A DNA stretch of 10,111 nucleotides from an uncultured archaeon. Lineage in GTDB: Archaea > Thermoproteota > Nitrososphaeria > Nitrososphaerales > CALBXV01. The stretch covers positions 1 through 10,111 of the forward strand of contig CALBXV010000182.1 in the NCBI GenBank assembly GCA_937890045.1, written 5' to 3'. This document shows positions 1-10,111 of this stretch, piece by piece. Within the stretch, counting starts at the first letter, position 1. Each line of letters begins with the position of its first letter. Made by a program: the position numbers and the translations under genes. Below the pieces are notes generated by a model. It had not been told where the DNA came from, searched no databases, and worked only from the letters and a program-made list of their open reading frames with translations.

Positions 1-2476
1 GCCATCTTCCATATTCAGTACTATATTGATAATCAGTATATCTTCTGCTCTCTTCTGTATCTTGGGTATAATCTACATTTCCAAGAAGTATTTTAGCTGT
101 TGGAGAGTCAAGCTTTGTAAGACCACTCATTATACTGAAATACTTTAAATGTCCAATTGTTGGGCCTGAAAATTCAGATAATAGACCAAATGTAGCTCTA
201 TCTTCATCCCCATATTCAACCAGATCTCTTTCAATCCTACTTAACCTATTAAGAGTCTCATTTTCTAATATATTATTAAAATTAGCATTAAATAAGATAG
301 ATCCTAGCTGTATTAGCCCAAATACACCCGCATACCGCATCACATACTGCATCTCAGGTGAAGTCCAGTTACCAGCCTTAGCTGACTGTCCTGCTGCCTT
401 TAACTGGCTTATATGCGTTTCTAGAAGACTCATAGGATAATGCATTAGGTGGAATGCTACTTCACTAAGACCTGCTCCAGCAGCTTTGGGACCTTTTCTA
501 ACTATGTAAGAATCTCCAATTTCATCTACTATCTCAATATTTTGACTGCCTCGCACCCATTTATTTTTAGCAAATGGAGCATATTCATATGCCCACCCAT
601 TTACCATTTTTAAGGCATGATTCTTAGCAAAAGTTATATTTTCTGATTCAGATAACGTATTGGTAGCAGATAATTCCTGAAATTTATTAATAAATGAAGT
701 TCTGAACATAAATTTCCTTTGTCCATTTTCAGTCCATCTATGAAAGAGCAACAAGAAACTAAGTGTTTTGTCTCCTTGCTTTTCTATCCAATCTCTTACT
801 TTAGTACCTTTATAAAAATACTCACCTTTTTGTTCATTAAATACAAGATCACCCTCACGATATTTATCCTTACCTACAATACCTTCCATCATAATGGCAC
901 TATCTTTTGGAGTAAATAGAAAACCTTCTTCTTTTTCTACCCTATCAACAATTTCTTTCATTTTCAAATTTTGATATGACTTTTTCGCATTTTTAATAGC
1001 TCTAGGACCTACCCTGGACAAATAATGCAATACACTAGCAGCATTCTTTATACCACCACTTATGTTCATTCCCATAGTTCTTCCTGTCTGGAAACGATTT
1101 ATGGTACGTGTCCAATCATTTACCCACTTAGGACGATTTCTGCCTTCAGTATTAGCTACAAGATATTCTTCCATTATAAAACTTTTCATTCCTCTTAAAA
1201 ATGCACTATCTGCATTAGGAATAGTTCTCATTGCTTCAAGATATGCCTTCTGTATATGAATATTCTTATTAAACTGAATAGCATCTCTTGAATATCTCTC
1301 CAGTATTACATATGGATCAGATTCCCATAAAAGGTTCAAGTTTCTGCTTGCTGCTTTTGTATTCTTAGGAGCTAAGTTATTCATCTGACTTAAGAGTTTG
1401 TCTGTAATACCCATCATTTCATTCATATATTGATTTGCAGTGTCTATATTAGATTCTGTTACCAGATTTTCAAGCTTTACTTTCATATCATACATAGTTT
1501 CAAGTATAATCTTTGGAAAATAATTTCCTTTTTCCATACTTTTATCTATACGAATTGCTGCAGCTTCTAATTTATCCATAAGATTAGTTCTTGCTGGATT
1601 AAACCTGGAATATTTAAAATCAATAACATTCTTCATTTCACGTAAAGCAGCAATATTAACCCTACCTACAGTATCCAACAAATTATGAGACATTTCTACT
1701 GCTTGTATTATTTTAGGATTATACTTAACCATTTTTTGTACATCTGTAACAGGATCTGTATGCAGATATCCGTTACGAATTGCTAGATCAAGTTCAGAAT
1801 TCTTAAATTTAATTGTTTCAGGATGTTTACTTGCCAACTTGACTAAAGTATGATATTCTCCTAGAAGCTTTCCATTGTCCTGTAAATAAAAACCCTTAAC
1901 AGCATCATGCATATCCTGCTCCATGTTTTCATCTTTTGCCTTTACAATCTTATCTCTTATCTTTCTATATTCCTTATAACTCTTATTACCAAAAAACCTA
2001 CCTCCCTTTCCTACATCAATATGAGCAGATAGTATCTTATCTTTAATCTCCTGAATAGAAAATTCCACCTGACTCATCTTATTACGTTCATAGTTTTTAG
2101 CACTTTCCAAATCCATTAACATTTTATTAGATGATGGATCTAACCTTGCCAAACCCCTGGGAACAGCAAAAATACCAGCTATATTCTTAAACTTTCCTGT
2201 TAAATCTTTATTATGTCCATCAATAGCTATTTTTATTCTTTCTAACTGTTTATCTGTAAAATTCTGTTCTACTTTAAATGGATAATCAAGTATATCCCAA
2301 ACATAACTTTTTAAACCATTTTCAGCCATTTCTTTTTCAAATGTTCCATCAGGCCTCGTATATCTTTTTCTGATATTAGGCTTATCAACCCAATATTTGA
2401 ATATCTTATTCATTCTTTCAGCATTGAAATCAGTATTTACTGCTGCTGACTGAACTTCATTACAAGCTATTGACAT
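1..2476 (-). CDS. Large helix-rich phage protein, candidate virion cargo or ejection protein (C-terminus outside window)
   Basis: My own reading of the minus strand gives 825 codons from ATG at 2476 with no stop, running off the left edge, so the stop and C-terminus lie outside. It begins MSIACNEVQSAA. The visible part is highly charged and mostly helical by composition, with long Lys/Glu/Asn/Met-rich segments through about residue 460. A Gly-rich turn (Asn-Ile-Ser-Gly-Gly-Ile-Lys-Asn) follows. Further on there are aromatic-rich segments and one hydrophobic stretch at about residues 715-730 (Tyr-Ala-Gly-Val-Phe-Gly-Leu-Ile). I see no enzyme motif or signal peptide. The arrangement is reminiscent of helical C-terminal modules in large phage polyvalent or ejection proteins, but I cannot name a family. 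It follows the polymerase-like gene by 105 bases on the same strand with no evident terminator, so co-transcription is likely. The ORF and start are secure, and the role is inference. Confidence 0.8.
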   Translation of the reverse strand, partial: MSIACNEVQSAAVNTDFNAERMNKIFKYWVDKPNIRKRYTRPDGTFEKEMAENGLKSYVWDILDYPFKVEQNFTDKQLERIKIAIDGHNKDLTGKFKNIAGIFAVPRGLARLDPSSNKMLMDLESAKNYERNKMSQVEFSIQEIKDKILSAHIDVGKGGRFFGNKSYKEYRKIRDKIVKAKDENMEQDMHDAVKGFYLQDNGKLLGEYHTLVKLASKHPETIKFKNSELDLAIRNGYLHTDPVTDVQKMVKYNPKIIQAVEMSHNLLDTVGRVNIAALREMKNVIDFKYSRFNPARTNLMDKLEAAAIRIDKSMEKGNYFPKIILETMYDMKVKLENLVTESNIDTANQYMNEMMGITDKLLSQMNNLAPKNTKAASRNLNLLWESDPYVILERYSRDAIQFNKNIHIQKAYLEAMRTIPNADSAFLRGMKSFIMEEYLVANTEGRNRPKWVNDWTRTINRFQTGRTMGMNISGGIKNAASVLHYLSRVGPRAIKNAKKSYQNLKMKEIVDRVEKEEGFLFTPKDSAIMMEGIVGKDKYREGDLVFNEQKGEYFYKGTKVRDWIEKQGDKTLSFLLLFHRWTENGQRKFMFRTSFINKFQELSATNTLSESENITFAKNHALKMVNGWAYEYAPFAKNKWVRGSQNIEIVDEIGDSYIVRKGPKAAGAGLSEVAFHLMHYPMSLLETHISQLKAAGQSAKAGNWTSPEMQYVMRYAGVFGLIQLGSILFNANFNNILENETLNRLSRIERDLVEYGDEDRATFGLLSEFSGPTIGHLKYFSIMSGLTKLDSPTAKILLGNVDYTQDTEESRRYTDYQYSTEYGRW

Positions 2477-2581: not shown

Positions 2582-5500
2582 TTATTTACATCCCATTATT
2601 TTTTCCATTATTTTATCAATGCGACCACTTTTTCTATAATCATAAAAGTAACTCTGTTTTCCATTTATATCCCTCCTTCTAGAGAAATCTCCTCTTCCCA
2701 GTATAAAACTTCTTGCATAATAACTCAACACTGGATTTACATACCAATCACTCATTAGAATATCACCAGTAGACATTCTTAATCTGTTCCAGTCTTCACG
2801 TCCTTCCATTCTCATCCTATTATATTGCTGAGTTACAAGTTCTATCTGACCAGTCTTATGGTCATGCGAAGCATTCATGTCTTTTATAATAGTTTCTATT
2901 GAAGTTCTTGGATCAAATCCAAACTTCTCTGCATTACTTGGCTCTGCACCAATTGCTGGTCTTCTCATCCAATGAAAGACAGATTCAATAAGGTGAGTAT
3001 TCATCTTAAAGTAAGGAATCTCTTCAGCACCTTCTTTTATATATACATTCCTCTGTATCTGTGGCTGAAGAAGATATCGTAGAAGTTTTTCAAAATTCCC
3101 TGATCTACCATAATCTCTAAAAAATTCTCCTATCATCCTATCAGTTATAACAGAATTATAATAATAAATATCATTTTTATCAATTGGCTGCTTATCTGCT
3201 GCATCATGTGCTTTACTGTAAGTATTAGCTACACCTCTCCTAAGAGCTTCTACAGCAGAGAAGAAACTGGTAGCACCAATAGGATTAACATCAGGATTAT
3301 ACTCAGGATCTACATCACCTGACTTCAAGGTGCCAACTCCTGTTGCCCGTGCAAAAGCTCTGTTCCATCTTACTTCTGGATCCTCAACAGTTACAAACTT
3401 GGGAGGTCTTTTATCAACAATATAAGTATAGCCCCTACGAACTCTTTCCTTACGTCCATCTCTTACTGATCCTATGTATTCAAGTGCTCCCATATGTTTT
3501 TTAGGATCTAATACATCTTTTTTTATCTTTCCCTTAACTCTATACAGATTACCATTCAACTTAAAATCTCTATACTCCCAATTAATATCATCCTTGGTAG
3601 CTTTAATATTAACAAGCTTTAAGTCTTGATCCTTACGAAGTAAGGCATGTTTAGCCATCTGTCGATCCAATGCATCAATAACATGCTGAGTTACAGTAAT
3701 CCTATCCTCTGCTCTCTCTATTTTATTTATATCTTTAAAGGTTTCATTCTTCAAAAGCCTTAAACTACTCACTGCTTTTTCATGCTGACTATTAGCAACA
3801 AATCTGATTATACCGCTATAGTTAGCATCAAACACAGACTTCCCACCTACTATCTCTGACGGTAAGGCTTTATCTGTTAGAACCATTTCATCAATTTTTT
3901 CAGGTGTTACATCTCCAAAAGACATTATAATTTCTAACTTATTTCTCAAGTTATTATAATGTGAGAACATAGTCCTATTCTTATCTGACCTATCTTTGTT
4001 ATCTCTCTCATAAAAAAGAGGATTTCTTATAACCTCATCCAAAACATGTCCACTCATACTACTCTTAATTTTAAGAGATTTGTCCAAAGTAAAATGTGGT
4101 GTTAACCCTGGTGATATATTTCCTTTCTTAAGTGCATCATATATCTTAGGGTAACTTGTTGAACCTTTTGGAATTTCAGTATAAAAGAACTCAAGTATAT
4201 TCTCAATATATTTATCTGCTCCTTCTCCATCACCTTTCTTTCTTAATCTTCTAGCATGTCCCAACAATCCTCTTATTAAATACTTGTTTGGATTATCAAA
4301 AAATGAATTAATATTAGTTCTTGCATCTCTTAATTCTTTTGTAGTTGGCTGCCTCTGTCCTGCAGTATCATGAATATCATTGTCCATAGCTCTCGATTTG
4401 CTAAGAGTCCTATGCATAATCCTAAACATTTCTCTCTCAAAGTCACTTGTTATGCCAAATCCTCTTCTCAAGAAACTTTCTGTACTATGATGCGGGCTTG
4501 GTTTTCCAAGATCTGAAGGATACAAACCATAAATAAAATAATCCTCAACATCAGTTCTTGCATCTCTAGTAGTCCTAGCAATCTTAGGAGTCTTTCCCCA
4601 TTTATCTAAAGAACTCTGAAATATTTCTCCCCCTCTTTGGAATATATCTAATGCTTTTGACAGTGATAGTTCTACATTCTTTTTATTAAAATCTTCAGAT
4701 ACAAAAGACTCCCCTCTATACTTTAACCCAGAAGTTAAAAGATAACTTAAAGTACCCTTTCTTGAAATTACATTAGAAACAATTCTATCCTTCTTAGCTA
4801 TATCATGAGCTATCTTATCAAATCCTATAGAAGAAGTCTCTTTTCCAGCAACACCATTCTTAAATCCAAACATATTCATTCCTGGAGTATACTCAACATC
4901 TTTAATAGGAGTATAATCTCTTATATCTCCCATGTCATCAGTATAATCTTTGAGCATGGACATAGGCATCTTTAGATATTTGTATATATGATCTCCATCA
5001 TTATCTCTTTGCATAGTTACACGTAAATCAAATGAATTTACGGTAGCCAACCCATTAAGATCAGAACCAAGAACCTTCTGAATACGCATCAAGGGCTGAT
5101 CCTTCATAACCTTAGGAATAGCATTCACACTCATACCTAATTGAATATTTAAATCTTTAGCTAAACGTCTAAAATCCTTGGTAAGTCCTATAGGAATTCC
5201 TGGAACAAGCCGTTTATTTTCGGATACCTTCCAAACTCTTCCATTCAATAAATCTATTAAATCACTATAAGTAACATTCTTCATAGCAAGAGTTTGTTTA
5301 TGTAAATGTTCTAATGTTTTCTGCATATTATGTAGATGAGTTTTATCTACTTCAATCCATTCATCTGGATCCAGACCTCTAATACGTGAACCTTTTCTAG
5401 CCTTTGCTTGTTCTTGAGCCTTAAGAAATGGACTATAATATTCCCACTTACCTTCATCGGTATAAGAAAAAAGTATATCCAAACCAGTTTTCTTATCTCT

Positions 5501-8500
5501 AGCTATAAAAGGAACATCCTGAATGTCAGCTACTCCCTCTACATCTCTACTAATTAATGTCTTAGCCATGGGTTGAGTAATAGAACCACCACCATACTGA
5601 TAAACACTATTAGAAGTCTTATTATTTGGAAATCCCTCAAACTGAGCATATACAGGATTACTGAGAGTATTATCTACATCAACAGCAGCAATTCCCTCTT
5701 CTCCATGCTGTGTTGGCCTGCTAGTAAGAATCTTATAAAAATCACTTTGAAGCAATCTCTGCAATGATGCCTGCAGCAAAGGATTTGATTCTCTACCCCC
5801 CCATGCAAGCAAGTCTTCAGTTAATGTATAACTACCAGTTGTTAATTGCTGACCTGATGCTTCTTGTCTTATTTTATATAGAGCTCTTAATAAATCTCCA
5901 TTAGCAAAGTCTTTATTATTATTGATCGTACCCATCTTTTGTATGATCTCATCTATTTTATATAACTTCTTTGCTTTTAGAAGATGATTTGGACTCTGAA
6001 AATCAAACATGGATGAAGAATAATTAACACCAGCATCAGAATGCGTAGTAAATGATATACCAAAATTCTTATAAGGAATATTTATAAAATTAGATGCATC
6101 CATATCAATAAGATCAACTTCCCATCCTCTCTCCAAACTTTTGGTTGGATCAATATTAAAGGCTTGAACCTTATCTAGATTTAATGTTTTAGCAACAGTC
6201 TTACCAACTAAAAGATCAATACCTATATCATTTAATACAGAAGCTATTTCTGGATTATAAACAGTAAATCCCTTGCCAAGCATATCATTGTCCATGATGA
6301 TAGTTTTAACTCCATTCCAATCACCTCCACCTTTTACTGACCTTACTAACTTACTAAAAGGAGTGCCAGAAAACTTTCCTCCATCTAAAAAGAAAGACTC
6401 AAGACTGGTATATGTTCCTTTAGTAATATCTTTAACAAAACTATTCACTATCTTTGTTTCTTGTGTGTCCTTTCCTCCAGAAATATTCTGCAAACTAATA
6501 ATTTTCTCTTCCAACTGTTTCATGATTATCTTTTTATTACTAAAGAAATGATCATCTGCCTTATTTGCTGGCTCATCATTTAGAACACCGAGCTTTATAT
6601 TTCCATTACTCAATATCTCATTAGCTTTATCTCTTACAGAAAGATTAGGGTTATAATCTCTAGACCATTCCAATGCTTGTCTTGTTAGATGAGTTGTTGT
6701 TCCACCATCAGATATTAAACCTCTTTTAAAACTATTAAACTCTATCTTGCCTCTATCCTGATCCATTTTACCCATCATCTCATCAAACTGAGGACTCATA
6801 GTTCTATTGTAATGCACAAACATCATCTTCAATCTTAGGATTTCATTATCCTGCTCAGTAGAATTAAATAAATGCTTAAAGCCTTTTTCAAAAGCAGCAA
6901 GACGTTTCTGCTGACCACGTCCTCCATATTGAGTTCTCTTCTGTACATATATATCATCAAAATCTCTATTAAGTAAATTAATATTCTGTTCATGCTTTGG
7001 AAAAACAATACGCATCATAGGACTCAAACGCATGTATACTTTATTACTATCCTTTACTGGCTTAAGACTTTCTATGCTAGGAATATCCATTACATAATCA
7101 ACATCTCTTAACCGCTCATACAAATCTTTCATCTCACTCATGTCAACAGTTATAGCTTTGTCAACATAATTCTGCATTATAAGCCAATCACCACCTATTT
7201 CAAAAGCATCATCCATATTAATAACACGATCACCAATCTTTATACTTCCATTTAAAAGCATATAGTCATACTTATATTGAGGATCTGACGTATATGTCCT
7301 ATCAAGAGTAATAGTTGAAAGAGAATGACGTGTAGGCTTATCTTCAAACTTTAACAAATGATGGTCTAGCGTAATAATTTTTCTAAGAGTCTTACCAAAA
7401 ATATTCTGGAGTAAAGGCTGTGCTTCAGTGTCGTTAAATTGCTCTATTTTTACTGCCTGCTCACCAGAATCAGAGTACTTCTTTCTTATGTCACTATAAA
7501 TATATTCTTCAAATACATCTTTAGCAGTTATATTCGGTTTTGCTGGATCAAATGCATCTGATATATCAGATACAAACTGATTATTTACAGCATTAGGATC
7601 AAGAGGATCCTGTATTGACGGATACTTAGTCAATAGCTCTTGATAATTTACAGGTCTTTCAGTATTTAACTTCTCAGCTTGAAGGTCATTTGTCATCTTA
7701 GCTGCTATATCATTATAAGCTTCCTGGTGTGTATTAAATCTACCTGCAGCTTTGACAACTGCATCAATGACAGTACGTGCATCCTTCCAATTACCAGTAT
7801 TATTAAACTCATCAATCAATTCCTGAAGAGGTGTTTCAGCTGATTTCTTATTCCCCAAAAGTTTATGAAAATCTCCAGTTAAATTTTCAAGCAATATTTT
7901 TGCATCATTATAACCTATGTTTGGATCTTTTTGTGTAAGATGATTCTCAAGTTTGATAAGAAGCTTGGAAAGCTCTGTTTTCTGAACATGGTCTGCATCC
8001 ATCTCAAACTGAATCATCTCATCAAAAGACTCAATCATTTTACCATAGTTTTCTTCACTAAAAGTCCTGGAAGGCTGCTCCTTTCCTTCTGCTATACCCT
8101 GCTCAAGAGCAGTAATAAGACCTCCTAATTTCTTGCTGGTATCTTCATCAATATTTTTCTCTGCCTTTAATGCCTCATGAATAAGCTTTGCTTCTGCAAG
8201 AGCTTTTCTTACTTTATCAAGCTCAAGTGTTTTCTTGGGACTAACAATCTCACTTTGGATTTCATCTGATAGCTCTCTCAAGGACACTATCTGTTTTACC
8301 ACCATGCTATTTTCACCAAGGTTACCAAGTGTATCATTTATGTTCTCTACAAAATCCTTAACCTTACTATGTGCAACTTGTTGATGAATGTCAATCCACT
8401 TAAGTAATTCATTACTTCCTACATGTTCTTTCGGAGCAAAATGAGACCTACCTCTCAGCTGAGGATTAAACATATCATATACCCCCTGAACTGCTTCCTT

Positions 8501-10111
8501 AACAGTCCTTACTGTTGCTCCATCTACACCAGCAAGTGCATTTTCAATAGAGTTTTCAGTAGGAAATATTATTTTTTTCATTCCCCCTTCAAACTCAAAG
8601 TCAATAAGACCTTCATCTTTAGCTCTCTGAAATGCAGTATAAGATAACTTATTACCTCCAGTAAATATTCTAGATTGAAACTCTTCTAATCCTTTAGCAT
8701 ATACATTATTTTTCCAGTCAGGAGGAAGTCTTTTTACCATATCTGTTACTTTATCAGCAACTTCCTGAACATCACCTGATTTTATATCCAACTTTCGTGA
8801 CCTAGTTTTACCTACAAATGATAGGTTCTTCATCAAATCATATACTGGCTGTATAATATATAAGTTTTCAGATATCTTTTGATCAGCAAGAAGTTCTTCT
8901 CCAGCCTTCTTATCAACTTCATTATCATATATATTATTAGAAAACTTACCCTTCTGTCCGAAAAGATTAACAAGCTCGTCTCTTAATGTAATAACATTCT
9001 TTTTCTTAGTCTCATCATGACTAACAACCTTGTATAGATCATCCTTTGCCTGGGTAGCATTTATATCCTTGATTGCTTTAAGAAAAATATTGTCATCAAA
9101 TTTTAAGTATAAATTATGGTTAAGAAATCTTCCCTCCATATCAACCATAGCTTCGTGAATAACCCCACCCAAAGCATTATCATAATCTCTTACTGACATT
9201 TTTCTGCCTTTTGCTAGATCAGTAGCTAGTAAAGGATCATCAATTATATCAATATTCAGTACAGAACCATAGTTTCTTATCAAATTATTATATTCATGTA
9301 TATTAGGAGTATTCTGTCCTTTTGGAGTATCAATCATTCTTGCAGATCCTTTTAAAGGTGCACCTTCAGGACCAGGGACAATGCTGAAAGGTATTTCAAA
9401 TCTTTCCTTAAGTAATCCAAGTATATCATACTGATCAGAAATAATCTCTGCTTTGGTTTCTCCTATTAACTCTACCTGAAGATCTTCTTTTGTCATTTCA
9501 TCAACTGACCTATCTCCAATCTTTACTTTTCCCAGATCTCTCTGAATCATATCTAATGCTTTAGAATTCATCTCATCAATAGTTATAAAGGTAAAGTTTT
9601 TATCCTTCATTTTCTTTATTGCATTATATGAACTGAGTAGTTCCTGAACCTTGCTATATTTAGTAGTAGAAATAGATTCTCCATTATTTCTCCAATCAAC
9701 ACGCTCACCCTCAAAGACACTATCAAATGTATTTACAATTTCATCAGCAATTGGATTATTCCCATGTATAATACCAAATTTATCAATCATCTCTCTAATC
9801 TTCATGACTGAAATAGTCTCATCCATCTTTGTATGATCTGTCTGGAGAAAGTTTAATGCTCGATGCATCTCCCCATACTCATCTGATATATAACCTCTCT
9901 TGCCAGCATGATCCCATGCACCCCTGCCTTTAGTCATTAGTGCTGCCATAAACAGATGAGCTGACAGTTCCTGAGGACTCATATCTTTAAAAGCACCCAT
10001 ATTTAAAGCTTCCCAATTCATAAATAATACACCTGTCCCCATACGAGGTGCAGATGCAATGAGATCTCCCCAATAATTACTATTCCACCTACGTACCAGA
10101 TTTTGTGAAAC
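2582..10111 (-). CDS. Giant phage protein with a DxDGD RNA-polymerase-like catalytic motif (N-terminus outside window)
   Basis: This is one open frame of 2509 codons ending in TAA at 2584-2582. It stays open to the right edge: 23 further residues precede the first in-window ATG at 10042, so that ATG need not be the start. Residue numbers here count from that Met. The key segment is residues 1650-1697: a Pro-Leu-Met-Arg start, a hydrophobic stretch, then Arg-Asp-Asn-Asp-Gly-Asp with D1680, D1682 and D1684, followed by a Met-Pro-Met-Ser turn. This layout resembles the DFDGD metal-binding barrel of RNA polymerase beta', which is followed by a Pro-Leu turn. Known single-chain polymerases with two such barrels (QDE-1, YonO, crAss-like gp66) use the same triad to make RNA from nucleoside triphosphates. 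A possible lysine-bearing first barrel lies near residues 1244-1290. Residues about 575-720 look helical, possibly coiled coil. No signal peptide or transmembrane segment is evident. I infer a virion-carried phage RNA polymerase. A non-catalytic large polyvalent or ejection protein is the main alternative. The ORF is near certain and the function moderate. Confidence 0.8.
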   Translation of the reverse strand, partial: VSQNLVRRWNSNYWGDLIASAPRMGTGVLFMNWEALNMGAFKDMSPQELSAHLFMAALMTKGRGAWDHAGKRGYISDEYGEMHRALNFLQTDHTKMDETISVMKIREMIDKFGIIHGNNPIADEIVNTFDSVFEGERVDWRNNGESISTTKYSKVQELLSSYNAIKKMKDKNFTFITIDEMNSKALDMIQRDLGKVKIGDRSVDEMTKEDLQVELIGETKAEIISDQYDILGLLKERFEIPFSIVPGPEGAPLKGSARMIDTPKGQNTPNIHEYNNLIRNYGSVLNIDIIDDPLLATDLAKGRKMSVRDYDNALGGVIHEAMVDMEGRFLNHNLYLKFDDNIFLKAIKDINATQAKDDLYKVVSHDETKKKNVITLRDELVNLFGQKGKFSNNIYDNEVDKKAGEELLADQKISENLYIIQPVYDLMKNLSFVGKTRSRKLDIKSGDVQEVADKVTDMVKRLPPDWKNNVYAKGLEEFQSRIFTGGNKLSYTAFQRAKDEGLIDFEFEGGMKKIIFPTENSIENALAGVDGATVRTVKEAVQGVYDMFNPQLRGRSHFAPKEHVGSNELLKWIDIHQQVAHSKVKDFVENINDTLGNLGENSMVVKQIVSLRELSDEIQSEIVSPKKTLELDKVRKALAEAKLIHEALKAEKNIDEDTSKKLGGLITALEQGIAEGKEQPSRTFSEENYGKMIESFDEMIQFEMDADHVQKTELSKLLIKLENHLTQKDPNIGYNDAKILLENLTGDFHKLLGNKKSAETPLQELIDEFNNTGNWKDARTVIDAVVKAAGRFNTHQEAYNDIAAKMTNDLQAEKLNTERPVNYQELLTKYPSIQDPLDPNAVNNQFVSDISDAFDPAKPNITAKDVFEEYIYSDIRKKYSDSGEQAVKIEQFNDTEAQPLLQNIFGKTLRKIITLDHHLLKFEDKPTRHSLSTITLDRTYTSDPQYKYDYMLLNGSIKIGDRVINMDDAFEIGGDWLIMQNYVDKAITVDMSEMKDLYERLRDVDYVMDIPSIESLKPVKDSNKVYMRLSPMMRIVFPKHEQNINLLNRDFDDIYVQKRTQYGGRGQQKRLAAFEKGFKHLFNSTEQDNEILRLKMMFVHYNRTMSPQFDEMMGKMDQDRGKIEFNSFKRGLISDGGTTTHLTRQALEWSRDYNPNLSVRDKANEILSNGNIKLGVLNDEPANKADDHFFSNKKIIMKQLEEKIISLQNISGGKDTQETKIVNSFVKDITKGTYTSLESFFLDGGKFSGTPFSKLVRSVKGGGDWNGVKTIIMDNDMLGKGFTVYNPEIASVLNDIGIDLLVGKTVAKTLNLDKVQAFNIDPTKSLERGWEVDLIDMDASNFINIPYKNFGISFTTHSDAGVNYSSSMFDFQSPNHLLKAKKLYKIDEIIQKMGTINNNKDFANGDLLRALYKIRQEASGQQLTTGSYTLTEDLLAWGGRESNPLLQASLQRLLQSDFYKILTSRPTQHGEEGIAAVDVDNTLSNPVYAQFEGFPNNKTSNSVYQYGGGSITQPMAKTLISRDVEGVADIQDVPFIARDKKTGLDILFSYTDEGKWEYYSPFLKAQEQAKARKGSRIRGLDPDEWIEVDKTHLHNMQKTLEHLHKQTLAMKNVTYSDLIDLLNGRVWKVSENKRLVPGIPIGLTKDFRRLAKDLNIQLGMSVNAIPKVMKDQPLMRIQKVLGSDLNGLATVNSFDLRVTMQRDNDGDHIYKYLKMPMSMLKDYTDDMGDIRDYTPIKDVEYTPGMNMFGFKNGVAGKETSSIGFDKIAHDIAKKDRIVSNVISRKGTLSYLLTSGLKYRGESFVSEDFNKKNVELSLSKALDIFQRGGEIFQSSLDKWGKTPKIARTTRDARTDVEDYFIYGLYPSDLGKPSPHHSTESFLRRGFGITSDFEREMFRIMHRTLSKSRAMDNDIHDTAGQRQPTTKELRDARTNINSFFDNPNKYLIRGLLGHARRLRKKGDGEGADKYIENILEFFYTEIPKGSTSYPKIYDALKKGNISPGLTPHFTLDKSLKIKSSMSGHVLDEVIRNPLFYERDNKDRSDKNRTMFSHYNNLRNKLEIIMSFGDVTPEKIDEMVLTDKALPSEIVGGKSVFDANYSGIIRFVANSQHEKAVSSLRLLKNETFKDINKIERAEDRITVTQHVIDALDRQMAKHALLRKDQDLKLVNIKATKDDINWEYRDFKLNGNLYRVKGKIKKDVLDPKKHMGALEYIGSVRDGRKERVRRGYTYIVDKRPPKFVTVEDPEVRWNRAFARATGVGTLKSGDVDPEYNPDVNPIGATSFFSAVEALRRGVANTYSKAHDAADKQPIDKNDIYYYNSVITDRMIGEFFRDYGRSGNFEKLLRYLLQPQIQRNVYIKEGAEEIPYFKMNTHLIESVFHWMRRPAIGAEPSNAEKFGFDPRTSIETIIKDMNASHDHKTGQIELVTQQYNRMRMEGREDWNRLRMSTGDILMSDWYVNPVLSYYARSFILGRGDFSRRRDINGKQSYFYDYRKSGRIDKIMEKIMGCK
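4298..4567 (-). repeat. Internal RDART motif repeat in the giant protein
   Basis: Two copies of an 11-residue pattern occur 79 residues apart, at residues 1826-1836 (bases 4567-4535) and 1905-1915 (bases 4330-4298). Both start Arg-Asp-Ala-Arg-Thr and end in Phe. The five residues between are mostly conservative changes (Asp/Asn, Val/Ile, Glu/Asn, Asp/Ser, Tyr/Phe). The first 15 bases are identical in both copies (plus-strand agttcttgcatctct at 4316-4330 and 4553-4567). The repeat lies about 140 residues after DNDGD. It may mark a small internal duplication or chance. Confidence 0.4.
4991..5005 (-). other. Putative catalytic metal-binding motif DNDGD (DxDGD class) of the giant protein
   Basis: Codons GAT AAT GAT GGA GAT encode D1680, N, D1682, G and D1684 (numbered from the Met at 10042). 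In cellular RNA polymerases the three aspartates of NADFDGD chelate the catalytic magnesium, and two-barrel single-chain polymerases keep DxDGD. Here the usual bulky Phe or Tyr is replaced by Asn and the preceding Asn-Ala by Gln-Arg, so the motif is a divergent match. Alternating hydrophobic residues before it (around V1668 to V1675) fit barrel strands. Confidence 0.55.
6172..6312 (-). other. Candidate first barrel segment of the polymerase-like core
   Basis: Residues about 1244-1290 of the giant protein begin with a hydrophobic strand and a turn of Met-Asp-Asn-Asp-Met-Leu-Gly-Lys-Gly (K1257). A Tyr-Asn-Pro segment follows, then Gly-Ile-Asp and two spaced lysines (K1281, K1285). In two-barrel polymerases the barrel N-terminal to the DxDGD barrel supplies basic residues that contact the nucleotide. 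The distance of about 400 residues to DNDGD is of the right order. This is pattern resemblance only, and I cannot align it rigorously. Confidence 0.25.

Follow-up and report, generated by a model that had tools for sequence, protein, structure and literature searches.

Relatives and conservation of the aspartate motif

The contig CALBXV010000182.1 (assembly GCA_937890045.1, filed under an uncultured archaeon) raises the question of whether a giant open reading frame (ORF), which holds a short DNDGD motif, encodes an RNA polymerase (RNAP) of a phage. The window analyzed here is the whole 10,111-nucleotide stretch of this contig, the minus strand of which is taken up by two ORFs (Table 1). We consider it probable (roughly 0.8) that the giant ORF encodes a single-chain RNAP with two double-psi beta-barrels from an uncultured tailed phage, that this enzyme is packaged in the virion, and that its ends serve packaging and transfer. 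The motif, its conservation and the gene order were read from the sequence and the overall fold from predicted structures, while catalysis, the use of a DNA template, packaging and an early-gene role are proposed.

Counted from its first ATG (10042), the giant ORF encodes 2,486 aa. P0003, a full-length relative sharing 99% identity, has 2,927 aa (offset to the window ORF, +418) and shows 14 differences from the window translation over 2,509 positions. The initial annotation had described a protein of more than 2500 residues; the full protein is about 2,927 aa. DNDGD is the sole D-x-D-G-D across the six frames of the window, and its position and residue numbering (D1680, D1682 and D1684) are as first reported. 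The neighboring elements had also been placed correctly, with PLMRI starting 30 residues ahead of the first Asp and MPMS lying 8–11 residues past the last Asp.

Three protein searches retrieved 64 relatives, of which 57 are 2,919–3,108 aa long and seven are shorter (1,538–2,747 aa). The core alignment contains 61 rows, comprising the window core and 60 relatives, without P0003 and the final three. Core pairwise identity goes down to 23%, with a median of 33%, and single-linkage clustering at 50% core identity separates the 61 sequences into 13 groups. Despite this divergence, every residue of QRDxDGDH other than x is present in 61/61 rows. Loss of the motif in homologues had been named as a finding that would overturn the proposal; exactly one DxDGD is kept in each of the 64 relatives, always within QRDxDGDH. 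The motif is thus under strict constraint, and its conservation across relatives lifts it above chance. Lysines at model positions 308, 448, 459 and 487 are likewise present in 61/61 rows, and the last three sit 387–494 residues ahead of the first Asp. Judging from this strict conservation, catalysis by the giant ORF is very likely.

The x residue of the motif is N in 43 rows, Y in seven, H in five, L in three and F in three; in the full set of proteins it is N in 45/64. Asn had been regarded as a distinguishing oddity of this sequence, a view that does not hold, as it is the usual x residue of the family, though not among the window's own closest relatives. The x position is one of the 14 differences between the window and P0003, which carry N and F, respectively; an active-site position therefore varies between near-identical sequences.

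Predicted structure and fold matches

The catalytic core of the window and that of a 28%-identical relative were modeled with AlphaFold; the second model has a predicted local distance difference test (pLDDT) score of 78.2. As the initial annotation had proposed for the enzyme class, the top matches of both models are single-chain two-barrel RNAPs, namely the crAss-like phage virion RNA polymerase (vRNAP), QDE-1, RDR2 and P23-45-type phage RNAPs, and the suggested structure-prediction check supports the proposed class. In Foldseek, the crAss-like phage vRNAP is the only PDB match at E ≤ 0.001, and every PDB match with E below 0.5 in the lists of both models is a two-barrel-type polymerase. VIA Z scores are highest for QDE-1 (16.0) and RDR2 (14.9) with the window model, and for RDR2 (14.3) and QDE-1 (14.2) with the relative's model. 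Such Z values may be due to chain size or crystal state instead of kinship.

Multi-subunit beta'-type chains gave weak matches confined to the aspartate-bearing half, with large subunits aligning from residue 570–644 of the window model and from 196–262 of the trimmed second model. With the second model, 16 single-chain rows align from residue 6–22, and the other 34 listed rows, which include 9fyx_A, a chain from an influenza-polymerase entry, align only from 196–262. In the predicted structures, both barrels are on one chain, with the beta-like barrel ahead of the beta'-like barrel, and the DxDxD triad is assigned to the second, beta'-like barrel. A helix comparable to the candidate bridge helix of the window model is found at 561–589 of the second model.

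Table 1. Features of the window on contig CALBXV010000182.1.
Feature	Position	Strand	Remarks
Giant ORF, polymerase candidate	2582..10111	-	2,509 aa; 5' end open (truncated by window)
Downstream ORF, likely ejected partner	2..2476	-	825 aa, cut by window end; putative function
Catalytic core as modeled, two-barrel RNAP fold	4346..7648	-	1,101 aa; AlphaFold pLDDT 82.8, predicted template modeling score (pTM) 0.81; Foldseek and VIA matches
Beta-like (first) barrel region	6014..6436	-	DSSP strands within model residues 424–534; limits approximate, our reading
Lys at model residue 448 (NGxKT), invariant; candidate for the active site	6305..6307	-	61/61
Lys at model residue 459 (GKG[FY]), invariant; candidate for the active site	6272..6274	-	61/61
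Lys at model residue 487, invariant; candidate for the active site	6188..6190	-	61/61
Beta'-like half with aspartate motif	4499..5731	-	Model residues about 640–1050, from large-subunit alignments; limits approximate
DNDGD, presumed metal-binding motif	4991..5005	-	D1680-N1681-D1682-G1683-D1684 from first ATG; family form QRDxDGDH
Candidate bridge helix	4730..4819	-	30-residue helix after motif; model residues 944–973, DSSP; putative name

Sequence and profile searches

No sequence or profile search that we made joined the family to known RNAPs, and the kinship is proposed through the predicted fold. Searches against PHROGs and Pfam (four members for Pfam) returned nothing over threshold. A search of PDB with a hidden Markov model (HMM) gave no link to known RNAPs, the few matches being designed or other unrelated chains at E 0.03 and worse. 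The tblastn searches of P0001, P0026 and P0062 against 50,697 phage records gave no matches, and the family HMM had no match in the phi14:2 genome. When the whole core was compared with 72 crAss-like RNAP sequences by hhalign, the probability was 0.2% and the alignment lay away from the motif. With 111-column windows around both motifs, the DxDxD columns came into register with a score of 10.4 (reversed control, 8.4). Sliding controls scored higher, reaching 15.7 for the best of 56 gp66 windows and 14.0 for the best of 40 own windows, and all eight listed sliding windows of each set were above 10.4. The in-register alignment was therefore not used as evidence.

A pattern scan, which can miss relatives, of GTDB contigs (84,980 prokaryote species, each with one genome) gave 175 pattern matches, none of which was confirmed. 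P0006 is named from a Flammeovirgaceae metagenome-assembled genome, a name from which no host was drawn, the binning of viral contigs being unreliable. No second two-barrel RNAP was found in the 12 contigs searched, each of which had one match to profile A5. The T7-like RNAP family PF00940 was matched in 0/12 contigs, and the control genomes were equally without a match. A T7-like RNA polymerase domain of the N4 type had no Pfam match over the cut-off in four members, and the top folds are of the two-barrel type. When the early regions of two contigs were searched for promoters by direct repeats, only short, weak families emerged. Among the matches listed from open-licence PMC articles, no description of the family was found, and one may exist elsewhere.

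Phage gene neighborhood

In G001, the contig of a relative, a single-strand gene run contains genes encoding the large terminase subunit (TerL), portal, a scaffold-like ORF, capsid, more ORFs, a tail-type protein and smaller ORFs. The run ends with the polymerase, here 2,943 aa long, and an ORF of 885 aa, beyond which ORFs lie on the opposite strand. The labels "scaffold" and "tail-type" are ours, from position and likeness. Taken as circular, G004 and G007 have the gene order of G001; the match of G003 is partial, with no capsid gene seen. The best PHROGs matches in G001, G004 and G007 (3/3 scanned) are phrog_38 for TerL, phrog_156 for portal and phrog_1328 for capsid. Genes of replication type, for a DnaB-like helicase, a Sak4-like annealing protein and a RusA-like resolvase, were named on the opposite strand in G004 only.

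The proteins of G001 have weak matches among isolates. The TerL of G001 matched 613 isolate records, the best with about 25% identity, and its portal matched two isolate records annotated as P22-like. The capsid matched 21 isolate records, including 16 Pseudomonas phages, with 22–27% identity among the matches listed. In 12/12 contigs searched, which we chose from those of 39 loci, the polymerase core is followed on its own strand by a neighbor of about 900 aa (open frames of 871–961 aa).

In the isolates VS-ABTNL-3 and CRP-810, the capsid protein is distantly similar, as is the terminase in one of them. Each has a giant gene (1,790 aa and 2,016 aa, respectively) in a comparable slot, preceded by genes with DNA-injection or internal virion protein annotations. 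These isolates were considered as carriers of a divergent polymerase copy and rejected, as their giant proteins have neither DxDxD nor a profile match.

Some other features were observed in these contigs. In the opposite-strand cluster of the two relatives examined (L124:11346-12873 and L128:1-1556, both on the minus strand), a protein resembling ThiF/E1 (E 4e-19 and 4e-17 for Pfam ThiF) adjoins a Prok-JAB-like protein, the match of the latter being under the Pfam cut-off (E about 2e-4). This pair is possibly a phage-borne ubiquitin-like module for host takeover or counter-defence. Zinc-ribbon-like paired cysteines are present at the N terminus of a 293–355 aa ORF just before the tail-type protein in three relatives (L123:3551-4618, L129:8713-9618 and L135:4554-5435). 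Pfam matches of these three ORFs are weak and under the cut-off, with an NrdR-type Zn ribbon in one and a calcineurin-like phosphoesterase in another. The start and end of the 62-kb contig G004 hold similar, non-identical gene strings (for example, ORFs L123:505-954 and L126:1137-1586), which may come from a wrapped or mixed-strain assembly.

Proposed function and alternatives

In the proposed mechanism, the middle third of the giant ORF would contain the beta-like barrel with the invariant lysines and, some 390–490 residues after the lysines, the QRDxDGDH loop of the beta'-like barrel, whose three aspartates would bind metal. The flanks of the core (roughly 1,240 residues on its N-terminal side and 590 on its C-terminal side) and the ~900-aa neighbor would act in packaging and in entry into the cell. 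The polymerase would be packed in the virion, be injected along with the DNA and transcribe early phage genes once inside the cell. Its position after the virion genes and beside the ~900-aa partner suggests such a virion-packaged, injected early-gene polymerase, and packaging is proposed because of analogy, size, gene position and the constant partner.

Two caveats apply to this interpretation. A bare DxDGD motif taken alone is poor evidence and would prove little, with about 0.1 such motifs expected by chance per 2,509 aa of the giant ORF's composition. The confidence of the motif loop is also low, with pLDDT below 50 in the window model and a block mean of 64 in the second model. The same chance expectation and the lack of a family match in sequence searches would fit an incidental acidic loop in a structural protein, such as EF-hand-like calcium binding. 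The motif, however, lies within the half where beta'-type chains align, and two-barrel polymerases top the matches of both models and make up all PDB matches below E 0.5; these fold matches, although obtained with predicted structures, already largely refute an incidental loop, and we give it almost no weight.

The poorly modeled loop is likewise compatible with a giant ejection protein, internal to the virion, in which an RNAP-like fold is retained without polymerase activity, and the giant genes of VS-ABTNL-3 and CRP-810, which lack DxDxD, imply that this slot is not bound to polymerase activity. Yet three Asp and three Lys residues are invariant in 61/61 sequences at identities down to 23%, which is an active-site pattern, whereas a dead fold would drift; an inactive protein is very unlikely. 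An active two-barrel polymerase could also be a non-virion enzyme that is made after infection for middle or late genes. Precedents are YonO, which transcribes late genes (PMC5467207), and P23-45 gp64, which is absent from virions (PMC10770324). Such non-virion members are small (about 100 kDa for YonO and 593 aa for P32 gp64 in the structure), whereas 57/64 proteins here are 2,919–3,108 aa. The polymerase gene also comes after the virion genes, and the partner lies downstream of it in all contigs searched. A non-virion enzyme is thus unlikely, and the virion-packaged polymerase is preferred.

Comparison with known polymerases

To our knowledge, and with the families named in PMC10770324 and PMC7281927, rather few phage groups are known to have a one-chain relative of cellular RNAP. 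The two-barrel kind is already known, and the present phage family is linked to known RNAPs by predicted fold, not by sequence. It would add a new and diverse group, with 13 groups among 61 sequences and with head and packaging genes unlike those of phi14:2, and more data on the origin of viral single-chain enzymes, either as cellular polymerases that were captured and reduced or as forms of greater age.

Among cellular enzymes, QDE-1 and RDR2, eukaryotic RNA-dependent RNA polymerases of RNA interference, have the highest VIA Z with both family models, while Foldseek places the crAss-like enzyme above them. The lysine barrel of QDE-1 is ahead of the aspartate barrel (PMC1750930). Both are cellular RNA-silencing enzymes, and no sequence similarity to the window family was found. 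The family might be a deep, separate two-barrel RNAP branch, acquired or evolved independently of the crAss-like one and with a core nearer to QDE-1/RDR2, in which case the eukaryotic enzyme could have its source among phages of this kind; we regard this as rather improbable.

Among phage enzymes, YonO of SPbeta is likened to the window family by its description, being a single-chain, two-barrel enzyme whose activity depends on an aspartate triad (PMC5467207); it differs in its size of about 100 kDa and in serving late genes. In P23-45 gp96, a two-barrel RNAP is coupled with a giant virion protein (PMC10770324). This vRNAP is fused to the tail tape measure protein and is without a clamp, and the gp64-type and P74-26 gp62 non-virion RNA polymerase (nvRNAP) chains have about 590 aa, all unlike the window family. 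The closest predicted viral structures, compared by structure alone, are unnamed viral BFVD proteins (A0A516L9L2 and others; E 2.5e-24, TM 0.55, 13% identity).

The crAss-like phi14:2 vRNAP (gp66 in the literature, Phi14:2_gp077 in KC821624, with the sequence of PDB 6VR4) has 2,180 aa and carries DFDID, not the DxDGD that the initial annotation had ascribed to gp66, whereas the window family has DxDGD and about 2,930 aa. Sequence or profile similarity between them is not significant. The TerL (phrog_6681), portal (phrog_6547) and capsid (phrog_11589) of phi14:2, the one crassvirus scanned, are unlike those of G001, G004 and G007. The phi14:2 genome is 100 kb, compared with at most 62 kb for the family contigs among the 12 searched, which are possibly incomplete. 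Homology to the gp66 family was thus not found, and TerL, portal and capsid, judged against phi14:2, are not of the Crassvirales type in 3/3 contigs. The family suggests that carriage of a single-chain RNAP in the particle may be commoner in tailed phages than one would judge from the crAss-like example by itself.
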